From positions 1-64,000 of the forward strand of contig JOSY01000007.1 of assembly GCA_000746765.1 (NCBI GenBank): a DNA stretch of 64,000 bases. The letters are read 5' to 3'. The notes under the pieces are model-generated. The model had not been told where the DNA came from. It ran no database searches and saw nothing but the letters and a program-made list of their open reading frames with translations. Position 1 is the first letter of the stretch; every line of letters begins with the position of its first letter. Of this stretch, positions 56,272 to 60,934 are shown one piece after another. Source of the DNA: Marine Group I thaumarchaeote SCGC AAA799-D11 (GTDB taxonomy: Archaea; Thermoproteota; Nitrososphaeria; Nitrososphaerales; Nitrosopumilaceae). Both the position numbers and the translations under genes were made by a program.

Positions 56272-57285
56272 TTAGGCTTTGGCCACTTTCATCAAATCAG
56301 CAATCTTGATGTCCATTCCAAATCTATCTTCATTCTTTTTCATGTAACGAAAGATAGCAAGAAAATCAGGTAATGATTTGAAGAAATTGAAATCTTTTTT
56401 GATTTTTGCTCTAACAAAATTGAAAACTTTGGCATAAACTTTGTAGTGTTCTTCAACTGCCTTTTCATATGCTTTGAAATCATTCATGTTTTCCAAGAAA
56501 AGCTCAACACATTGCATTGATGGAATAATTCCTTCGCCTAACAACGCATAAACTGTACCAATTGATTCTCCAACACCCACTACTTTACCTGAATAGTATG
56601 GCTTGCATCTGTCAGGAGTTGCTAATCTAATTGGCCTGCCTTTAGTTTTTAGAACTTTACCTCCGTGCTTCTTCAAGAAATCATCAGTTGCTTTGATGTG
56701 ATTCTTGTTGTAATCTCCTGCACCAATGTGTGCCCATTTTTCTCCTAGTGGGAAATACCAGAAATATCCTGACATTCCGGGAAATGGTTCAATGTAAAAG
56801 TCATCATATGGAACTCCATTTTCATATTCTACTTTGTATTCGTATGTAGGCAAAAAGAAATCTTCTTTGAGTTTTGGCAAGTATACTCTATGAAATCCAG
56901 TACAGTCCACTATCATGTCATACTCTTTTTCTAACTCTTCAAGTGATGGTGGTTTGCCATAGATAATTTTAGAATCTTTAATGAAATCTTTGATTAGACC
57001 AATCTTGTCATAAGTACACAATCCGTGTAACCCAATGTCAAACTTTACGTCATTGTTCATCTTGACATGCATGTTTTTTCCGTCATGAATTAGAAAGTCG
57101 TTAAAATCTCTGCCAGTTTTTTTACAGTATTCTGTAAGAATCGGTTTGATTGTGCCCCAAGCACAAATAGAATCATGTCTCTCCTTTGGGTTTAACTCGT
57201 ATCCTGTTACATCATGTTCAGAGTCTTTTAGTCTGGCCATAAGATAGGAACCTGCTACTCCCATCCCCATTACTGCAATCTTCAA
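56272..57285 (-). CDS. FAD-dependent oxidoreductase, geranylgeranyl-reductase-like
   Basis: MKIAVMGMGVAGSYLMARL (dinucleotide fold), YFWYFPLGEKWAHIGAGDYNK, GKVVGVGESIGTVYALLGEGIIPSMQC. Confidence 0.85.
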   Translation of the reverse strand: MKIAVMGMGVAGSYLMARLKDSEHDVTGYELNPKERHDSICAWGTIKPILTEYCKKTGRDFNDFLIHDGKNMHVKMNNDVKFDIGLHGLCTYDKIGLIKDFIKDSKIIYGKPPSLEELEKEYDMIVDCTGFHRVYLPKLKEDFFLPTYEYKVEYENGVPYDDFYIEPFPGMSGYFWYFPLGEKWAHIGAGDYNKNHIKATDDFLKKHGGKVLKTKGRPIRLATPDRCKPYYSGKVVGVGESIGTVYALLGEGIIPSMQCVELFLENMNDFKAYEKAVEEHYKVYAKVFNFVRAKIKKDFNFFKSLPDFLAIFRYMKKNEDRFGMDIKIADLMKVAKA

Positions 57286-57405
57286 GATATTTTGTGAATC
57301 TCTGGGGTGTAATAAATAGACTATCTGAATTTGTTAGATACGATTACCACTAGTAGAAATCATTAGCATCGGTTAAATATCAAATTCACATAATCTGTTT
57401 AAGAA

Positions 57406-57534
57406 AAGACAAGTCTGTCGTCTGAAAACAATCGTTTCAGGCCTTAAGATGAAATCACTGTCATCAGAGGACAACCGTTTCTGATCTTAAGTGGTAAGAG
57501 ATGTCATCAAGACGCTTTTGGTCTTGGTCTTAAT
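57406..57534 (+). ncRNA. Candidate structured RNA: three tandem 43-nt hairpin units
   Basis: Period exactly 43 nt; stems at unit positions 15-37 maintained by paired substitutions; G-T pairs place the transcript on +. Confidence 0.6.
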
Positions 57535-57585
57535 CTCGATTGTCTTTTCGTTTAATTTATTTTAGATTAATTTTGGATTCATTTC

Positions 57586-58188
57586 ATGGATGTTTTTGAA
57601 GCAGTATCAACACGACGTGCAATCAAAAAGTTTGATCCTAATCACAAGATGAGTCCTGAAGAAGTTAAAAAACTCATGGAACATGTGATATTGTCTCCTA
57701 CAAGTTACAACCAACAAAACTGGAGATTTATTTATGTCACTGATCAGGATGTAAAAGAGAAAGTTTCTGAAGCTGCACGTGGACAAGCTCAACCAAAAGA
57801 TGGTTCTTTGGTTGTTGTTTTGTGTGGTGATATGACTGCTTGGAAGACTGAGCCATTACGTTATTGGAAGAATCACCCAACAGAAAAACAAGAAATGGTA
57901 AAAGCAAGCCTTGAGAGAAAATATTCTACTGATACACAAGCACAAAGAGATGAAGCAATTCGTTCTTGTGGTATGGCAGCTCAAACAATAATGCTTGCAG
58001 CCCGTGACATGGGACTTGATTCATGTCCAATGGTTGGTTTTGAGTATGATGAATTGGCCAAAGTAATCAATCTGCCAGAGAACCATCTCATTGTAATGAT
58101 GGTTGTAGTTGGTAAAAAAGCAGAAGATGCAGCACAACGTGGTGGTCAGTTGCCTCTTAATGAAGTAGCATTTGAGAATAAATTCTAG
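57586..58188 (+). CDS. Nitroreductase family protein
   Basis: VFEAVSTRRAIKKFDPNHKMSPEEVKKLMEHVILSPTSYNQQNWRFIYV; AAQTIMLAARDMGLDSCPMVGFE. Confidence 0.94.
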   Translation: MDVFEAVSTRRAIKKFDPNHKMSPEEVKKLMEHVILSPTSYNQQNWRFIYVTDQDVKEKVSEAARGQAQPKDGSLVVVLCGDMTAWKTEPLRYWKNHPTEKQEMVKASLERKYSTDTQAQRDEAIRSCGMAAQTIMLAARDMGLDSCPMVGFEYDELAKVINLPENHLIVMMVVVGKKAEDAAQRGGQLPLNEVAFENKF

Positions 58189-58215: not shown

Positions 58216-59325
58216 GTGATATTATTGAGAGAAATTCTAATTGTTGTAATTGCATTTGTTTTACTAATTCCAACTCCTATCTTTGCACCATCTCATCCTG
58301 AATACATGGGACAACATCATCGCTCCTACATGGGAATGTGTGCACCTGGATTTGCTTCCCTTGATGGAATATGTGTTCTAGATGACAGATGTGGGCCTGG
58401 TGCATATGCAGGACGACTGTGTGTAATGGATGGTGTTATCAAAGAATACTTGCGACCACACCACCAAAAGTTTGCAGGAATTTCAGCTGAAAATGTAATC
58501 TGTCTTGAGGGAAAGCAGTTGATGTTCAAACATGACGCGACCCCAGCTTGTTTTAATGAGGCATCAGTTGAAAAGATGAAACATCGTGGATGGCATACTG
58601 AAAAACCGCCAATTGCATGTACAATGGAGTACAATCCCGTATGTGGAGTTGATGGAGTAACTTATGGTAACCTTTGTGGATTGAATGCCGAACACATGGC
58701 AATGAAGCATAGAGGTGAATGTTATGTTGAACCAAAGGAAAGTGAATTTAGAAACTATTCTACTTCTGGTAATTGTAAAGGATATGCTGAATGCCTATCA
58801 GGATATGTTACTAGAATAGTTGATGGTGATACAATTCATGTTGATGGAAAATCAATTAGATTTGCATTAGCATCAGCTCCTGAACTTGATGAGACAAATG
58901 GCATTGAGGCAAGAAATTTCATTCAGACAATATGTCCTGTTGATTCTTTTGTACTAGTTGATGAAGATGACAAGCAGACTGAGGGAAGTCATGGTAGAAT
59001 GCTTGGTACTGTATATTGTAATGGAGTATCACTTAATCAAGAACTATTAGATTCTGGATTGGGATATCTAAGTTCAGAGTTTTGTCAATCTTCAGAATTT
59101 GAGCATTATTCTTGGGCCCAAAAACACGGATGCCAACCCATTCCAGCATCTACACCTACACTAGATAATCAAAATGATTGTGATGTGTCATATCCAGACT
59201 TTTGTATTCCATCTCCGCCACCAGACTTGAATTGTGTAGATGTTGTGTACAAGAAATTCACCGTTCTACCACCTGATCCTCACAACTTTGATGGAGATAA
59301 TGATGGAATTGGCTGTGAATCCTAA
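58216..59325 (+). CDS. Secreted multidomain protein: Kazal-type domain + thermonuclease (SNase) domain + excalibur-like tail
   Basis: CTMEYNPVCGVDGVTYGNLCGLNAEHMAMKHRGEC; GYVTRIVDGDTIHVDGKSIRFALASAPEL; DFDGDNDGIGCE-type end. Confidence 0.9.
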   Translation: MILLREILIVVIAFVLLIPTPIFAPSHPEYMGQHHRSYMGMCAPGFASLDGICVLDDRCGPGAYAGRLCVMDGVIKEYLRPHHQKFAGISAENVICLEGKQLMFKHDATPACFNEASVEKMKHRGWHTEKPPIACTMEYNPVCGVDGVTYGNLCGLNAEHMAMKHRGECYVEPKESEFRNYSTSGNCKGYAECLSGYVTRIVDGDTIHVDGKSIRFALASAPELDETNGIEARNFIQTICPVDSFVLVDEDDKQTEGSHGRMLGTVYCNGVSLNQELLDSGLGYLSSEFCQSSEFEHYSWAQKHGCQPIPASTPTLDNQNDCDVSYPDFCIPSPPPDLNCVDVVYKKFTVLPPDPHNFDGDNDGIGCES

Positions 59326-60604: not shown

Positions 60605-60742
60605 AGTGAGTTTTTGTTTTGTAATTAATAAAAAATCAGTCTACACTGCAATACAATTTTCATATGTGACAAAAGAATGTAGTTTTTGGCACTAGTACAA
60701 ATTATTCTTTTTTTTAATATATTATGATGACATAATTCACTC

Positions 60743-60934
60743 ATGAACATCACTGATGAACATGGCATGAATCATTTGCTTGCAAAATGTCCAAACTGTC
60801 AAAGTGAGTCTCTTTTCTGCGGAAAGATACCAACTAATTTCAAAAAAATGCAAAACAAAGAGGTGTTGTTTTGCAAAAGATGCAAGTTCATTACTCCTGT
60901 AGAGGAGTTTAAAGACATGCTAGCTAGCAAATAA
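60743..60934 (+). CDS. Small zinc-ribbon protein
   Basis: HLLAKCPNCQSESLFCGKIPTNFKKMQNKEVLFCKRCKFITPVEEF. Confidence 0.75.
   Translation: MNITDEHGMNHLLAKCPNCQSESLFCGKIPTNFKKMQNKEVLFCKRCKFITPVEEFKDMLASK

Follow-up and report, generated by a model that had tools for sequence, protein, structure and literature searches.

A very probable stand-alone RNA gene with three repeated hairpin arms, and its smaller relatives, in marine ammonia-oxidizing archaea

Does the noncoding gap between a divergent geranylgeranyl-reductase-like gene and a downstream nitroreductase gene of Marine Group I thaumarchaeote SCGC AAA799-D11 encode an RNA of its own and, if so, what might such an RNA do? The window analyzed here is the whole stretch of 64,000 nucleotides from position 1 of contig JOSY01000007.1 (assembly GCA_000746765.1). 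A first-pass annotation, made from the letters of the window alone, had reported three tandem 43-nt hairpin units in this gap and had proposed an undescribed structured RNA transcribed from the plus strand. The sequence at 57400-57560 is as given there, the three units lie at exactly the coordinates reported (57406-57534) and, judged against shuffled sequences, represent more than chance, and all the inner-stem pairs and pair changes listed are present. That model was incomplete, having missed the outer stems, the closing stem P1, an invariant internal loop, and the relatives with one or two arms that the genome carries at other sites. The analysis described below indicates that the locus is, very likely, a real stand-alone structured RNA gene. 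The Nitrosopumilaceae are among the most abundant cells of the ocean and drive marine nitrification, and no structured regulatory RNA was found for them in the searchable literature.

The plus strand of 57400-57556 folds at -49.3 kcal/mol, compared with -32.7 +/- 3.8 kcal/mol for shuffled sequences (z -4.33), and 0 of 200 shuffles were as good. The predicted fold is a four-way junction in which P1 encloses three arms, and the minimum free energy (MFE) fold is identical to the comparative structure (Table 1). Each arm has two stems, outer and inner, separated by a 3x4 internal loop (5' NUC / 3' CUUA), and its tip is closed by A-C/G-U; in all three units of this locus, the internal loop reads 5' GUC / 3' CUUA. 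Across the arms compared, common apical loops are of the types CUAAUCG, CAAUAG, and CUAACCG. When the 64 kb were scanned with the arm model, only the three arms were recovered (E 4e-12 to 4e-10; next match, E 0.6), arm 1 being matched by R2 at 57412-57451 with E 1e-11 and with helices 2 and 3 paired in 97-99% of cells. The 43-nt period is local to this locus, and the arm spacing differs in other genomes. Loop positions C8, C1', U2', and A4' are present in 140 of 140 arms and U7 in 139, in contrast to the outermost stem pairs, which carry 0.2-0.7 bits; the 140/140 figure rests on matches selected by the model and is somewhat inflated. The segments that differ between copies are the paired ones, and the unpaired positions are those that are conserved.

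Table 1. Coordinates, in the window, of the RNA gene, its parts, and the flanking genes
Feature	Positions	Strand	Remarks
Conserved upstream promoter box CACTAGTAGAAATCATTAGCAT	57348-57369	+	Precedes nearly all three-arm loci; single hairpins have a related box
TATA box TTAAATA of the RNA gene	57373-57379	+	TATA 25-29 nt upstream of the model start in 49/49 loci
Three-arm RNA, predicted transcript body	57401-57553	+	Model R1 match, 147.3 bits; MFE fold equals comparative structure
P1 closing stem, 5' strand GAAAAGACAA	57403-57412	+	Two-sided changes in 9/10 P1 pairs
Arm 1	57413-57450	+	Internal loop G57417-C57419 / C57443-A57446 between outer and inner stems
Arm 2	57455-57494	+	Internal loop G57460-C57462 / C57486-A57489 between outer and inner stems; R2 E 3.8e-12
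Arm 3	57498-57537	+	Internal loop G57503-C57505 / C57529-A57532 between outer and inner stems; R2 E 3.9e-10
P1 closing stem, 3' strand TTGTCTTTTC	57540-57549	+	Comparative structure, MFE fold
T-rich tract, probable terminator	57546-57570	+	Coincides in part with the next gene's TATA region
Nitroreductase-family neighbour	57586-58188	+	Pfam PF00881, E 2.5e-33; outside the RNA
Divergent geranylgeranyl-reductase-like FAD enzyme	56272-57285	-	Weak TIGR02032 match; outside the RNA

Beyond the features in the table, a plus-strand gene just 3' of the nitroreductase (58216-59325) combines Kazal-type inhibitor and staphylococcal-nuclease domains, probably in a secreted protein, and keeps its position in only some relatives. 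At 60691-60745 (plus strand), a CACTAGTACAAATTATTC box similar to the upstream box of the RNA gene precedes a small protein gene.

The structural claim was examined in relatives, homology search and covariation having been among the checks that the first-pass annotation suggested. Searched at the DNA level, 60 relatives yielded about 29 homologous loci, with identities of 74-95%. When 28 sequences were aligned without structure, 87% of the cells pair and two-sided changes occur in 24 of the 47 pairs; with 48 distinct three-arm sequences aligned to the model, 92% of the cells are paired and 36/47 pairs change on both sides, whereas slid controls reached at most 44% paired and none of 500 shuffles reached any measure. 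P1 itself, over the 48 distinct sequences, is paired in 83% of the cells with two-sided changes in 9 of its 10 pairs, and in genus g42 it is replaced by the near-perfect but different ACAAGGGCUU/AAAGCCUUGU. Homologues in dozens of genomes, then, keep the stems as the sequence changes rather than losing them, and the structured-RNA claim held.

Ranking the structure-free three-arm alignment by covariation placed 57457/57492 first and 57500/57535 second, and true pairs dominate the top of that ranking (chance density, 0.4%). Under a strict tree-based, R-scape-like shuffle of the 151-column three-arm alignment, no pair was individually significant. For 158 arms aligned without structure (41 columns), the 11 pairs with the strongest covariation coincide exactly with the nested helix, down to the tip pairs 17-25 and 18-24. 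In 300 simulations with a tree-aware null that preserves site rates, the top four reach family-wise p values from <0.004 to 0.017. The covariation check was thus passed by the arm alignment and not by single pairs of the three-arm alignment, and the support consists of the pooled counts, the rank enrichment, and the arm alignment. G-U pairs far outnumber A-C oppositions, both in the arms (143 vs 14) and in the structure-free alignment (about 68 vs 10), and therefore the RNA is read from the plus strand, as had been argued from the wobble pairs. Both the structure and the strand are shown by these comparisons.

The RNA has its own promoter and is independent of its neighbours. All of the 49 three-arm loci examined have a TATA box 25-29 nt upstream of where P1 begins, which upholds the TATA-like box annotated at 57373. 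The 3' strand of P1 leads into the T-rich tract, and relatives are also T-rich at this position, including loci without the nitroreductase. A start near 57400 and an end in T-rich DNA, as previously proposed, are consistent with the sequence but remain inferred. The nitroreductase is downstream in 38/49 loci and missing in 11, and the divergent geranylgeranyl-reductase-like gene was seen in 46/49 (at L015, it was not seen, but the locus is too near the contig end to judge). INDEPENDENCE from neighbours is displayed by L213 and L231 (genus g42), which keep the three-arm RNA without either neighbour. Because the RNA is retained without the nitroreductase at 11 of 49 loci and, in g42, without both neighbours, it is a gene of its own and not a leader. 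The alignment of relatives places a TATA-like sequence of the nitroreductase itself about 28 nt before its ATG, in agreement with the separate TATA that had been noted for the next gene, and from this alignment it is inferred that the nitroreductase mRNA is likely leaderless. At the level of sequence, the conserved promoters, the U-rich ends, and the independence from neighbours are shown.

With the three-arm model, the full-length RNA (>100 bits) was found in 36 of 45 sampled Nitrosopumilus genomes, plus g24, another genus of the family, and a full-length match was absent from the other nine; genus g42 is matched at 68-75 bits, and a class-wide scan with the same model added nothing credible outside Nitrosopumilaceae. 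The arm model detects additional arms, single or in pairs, usually between 1 and 10 per genome with a maximum of 17 arm matches, among them three further matches in the window's own genome (G000 C33:129905, C16:13570, and C6:62495). Two-arm versions occur at L162, L171, L176, L205, and L211, such that the existence of a one-, two-, and three-arm family is likewise shown by sequence. A phylum scan of 398 genomes gave matches in 51, all Nitrosopumilaceae. In IMG/VR, 51 loose pattern matches were obtained and 0 were confirmed by the model, leaving viral copies unsupported. Only one single-hairpin gene came to light beyond the Nitrosopumilaceae, in a class scan: L289 (G339 C158:5511-5550), which has the same promoter and could be a horizontal transfer or a misbinned contig.

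The dispersed singles follow the consensus AAATCATCAGTATgttCTAAATACTATTTT, an unconserved spacer, AATTGGAACTGTCACCAAAcAACTAATCGTTgTTGGTCTTAAGTTCCAATT, and a T tract, which is the layout of a textbook small gene. They have an extended stem (CAATT) followed on the 3' side by the T tract, and most of them have a TATA box 33 nt upstream of the arm core, which places it about 27 nt ahead of the extended stem's base. The mean likeness of copies is 0.54 within a genome and 0.54 between genomes and, therefore, there has been no recent amplification burst. Two sets of singles are syntenic. Set A comprises L120 (2506-2546) and its orthologues L123, L127, L131, L132, L134, L138, L143, L152, L157, L158, L166, and L177, usually flanked by a plastocyanin-like copper protein gene on the divergent side and an unknown gene of about 120 aa on the convergent side, with the hairpins preceded by a TTGTCAATG...AACA box. 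In set B (L125, L129, L136, L142, L146, and L151), the hairpin is followed, after about 50 nt, by the gene for a conserved protein of 127 aa (MPGDEIEVPKE...) that has no Pfam match. As a separate observation, genus g37 (L192, L194, L207, and L208) carries a single hairpin whose extended stem, GGCAUC.../...GGGUGCC, is richer in GC; GGATTTTTTT comes after it and forms a clear terminator-like end.

The claim of novelty held within the scope of the searches. Rfam 15 at the gathering threshold yielded only two tRNAs in the window and no match to the RNA, a permissive Rfam scan of three homologous loci produced no credible match, and the Rfam check thus revealed no known family. The literature searched does not describe the RNA; an earlier mention in Walker 2010 (the N. 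maritimus genome) or Weinberg 2017 (224 candidate RNAs) cannot be excluded. In all likelihood, these hairpin RNAs form an apparently undescribed family across the ammonia-oxidizing archaea of the ocean.

As to function, we favor, tentatively and with less than even confidence, a reading in which each arm of these stand-alone small RNAs is a binding site for one and the same unidentified protein and the three-arm form serves as a multivalent decoy or scaffold; transcription, binding, and titration or sequestration are all inferred. The shared-protein reading is adopted because the unpaired parts are invariant while the stems drift with compensation and because the arm is used one, two, or three times. 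Such use, once, twice, or thrice per RNA, is what would be expected of a repeated binding site. Transcription would begin near 57400, at the P1 base, and stop in the T tract, with no transcript seen here; every arm would then bind the same RNA-binding protein via the invariant NUC/CUUA loop and the A-C/G-U-closed tip. By analogy with CsrB/RsmZ, the three-arm RNA may hold several protein copies as a multivalent decoy or scaffold, and the single-arm RNAs, from their own promoters, may tune the free protein pool. A small-molecule ligand would give the same conservation signature as a protein. CsrA (PF02599) itself is absent from the four genomes tested, the control being positive in E. coli and others. 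A bolder formulation, that of a new archaeal regulatory system with a new internal-loop motif, its own promoter type, an unidentified partner protein, and a multivalent decoy or scaffold in the dominant marine ammonia oxidizers, is held with the same less than even confidence.

Among the alternatives, the one that survives best, as a possibility, is that of trans-acting antisense RNAs, in which the arm would be a shared stability or chaperone module while the apical loops, the CUUAAG strand, and the tails pair with mRNAs. That there are multiple copies, with promoters of their own and upstream boxes that resemble one another, suits a co-regulated set of small RNAs, and CUUAAG is self-complementary and partly unpaired. 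However, the unpaired positions are conserved, little single-stranded sequence differs among copies, and a single-arm RNA is nearly all stem; since variation between copies falls in paired segments, different antisense seeds in different copies are unlikely.

It is unlikely that the RNA is a constitutive ribonucleoprotein component or a catalytic RNA with a structural or modification role and no regulatory one. Its compact, closed structure and strong conservation in most Nitrosopumilus genomes would fit such a role, but copy and arm numbers vary widely among genomes, nine of the 45 Nitrosopumilus genomes lack a full-length match, and no resemblance was found to the RNAs of 23S, the SSU region, SRP, or RNase P. 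The arm model compared with LSU, SSU-region, SRP, and RNase P loci gave nothing convincing, only one partial 15-bit flank match; the models for SRP and archaeal RNase P RNA, which had matches in G036, had none in the complete genome G106, possibly a limit of the search.

Similarly doubtful is a ligand-binding RNA, with the arm as a small aptamer and the locus acting like a riboswitch or as a free ligand-buffering RNA. An invariant asymmetric internal loop within a covarying stem, in tandem copies, is also aptamer-like; against an aptamer in a leader, the downstream genes differ or face the opposite way, and the nitroreductase, which is served by a TATA of its own, can be missing while the RNA persists.

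An element acting at the DNA level, be it an operator or a dispersed REP- or MITE-type mobile palindrome, is very unlikely. The copies are indeed multiple, palindromic, and intergenic, with varied neighbours, but the compensatory stem changes, the 143:14 strand asymmetry, the fixed TATA spacing, and the syntenic families across species speak against it, as does, for a mobile palindrome, the equal likeness (0.54) within and between genomes. Finally, a cis-acting leader or attenuator of the nitroreductase gene, suggested by the presence of that gene immediately downstream on the same strand at 38/49 loci, is all but excluded and was rejected, given that the RNA is maintained at the 11/49 loci where the nitroreductase is missing, that the nitroreductase is apparently leaderless with its own TATA, and that the one-arm relatives lie near unrelated, often convergent genes.

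The stand-alone RNA with a shared protein partner thus remains our preferred, if tentative, reading. Regardless of function, the results provide a defined RNA family with coordinates in the apparent cultured N. maritimus genome, a sharp recognition motif usable as bait for the partner protein, and a gene set that is likely co-regulated via one promoter type. In the apparent N. maritimus genome (G106), the three-arm RNA maps to 324575-324727 (plus strand) and single arms to 520106-520146 and 1004150-1004190 (both minus strand).

Several known systems resemble this family in part. The mini-ykkC/guanidine-II tandem-hairpin riboswitches share repeated small hairpins with conserved unpaired bases but have apical ACGR loops, whereas the conserved bases of the archaeal arms sit in the internal loop; membership among riboswitches or cis-leaders fails because there is no fixed 5' UTR position before one gene class. 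REP/MITE membership fails as the copies are no more alike within than between genomes. The L7Ae kink-turn RNAs (C/D, H/ACA) also have an asymmetric 3-nt internal loop in a short hairpin, and the comparison fails because the NUC/CUUA loop lacks tandem sheared G-A pairs. Archaeal H/ACA guide RNAs similarly consist of one to three tandem hairpins of similar size with an internal loop each; unlike these, the arms have neither a 3' ACA (ANA) box nor a kink-turn, and their loop is short and invariant, without a variable target-pairing pocket. Membership fails on the singles, which end in an extended stem and T tract, and on the presence of NUC/CUUA in nearly all of the 140 arms. Yfr103 and Tan1, abundant unexplained marine noncoding RNAs of 229-328 nt from different organisms (PMC5069720), are likewise lineage-specific structured RNAs of marine plankton with their own promoters, Yfr103 being multi-copy; their description in PMC5069720 gives no sign of a shared motif, no direct comparison having been made.

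The bacterial CsrB/CsrC and RsmX/Y/Z RNAs are similar in being stand-alone RNAs that repeat one small hairpin, with several paralogues per genome and a variable number of sites, and the RNA of this locus shares with them the repetition of one hairpin motif in a stand-alone RNA, having three arms of one motif under its own promoter. The CsrB/RsmZ hairpins present GGA in the loop for CsrA, whereas the archaeal arms follow no GGA rule and instead conserve the asymmetric NUC/CUUA internal loop. Membership in the CsrB type fails on the lack of GGA loops and on the absence of CsrA from the four genomes tested, but decoy-like working is still possible and, if that reading is true, multivalent RNA titration would be extended to Archaea with an unrelated motif.
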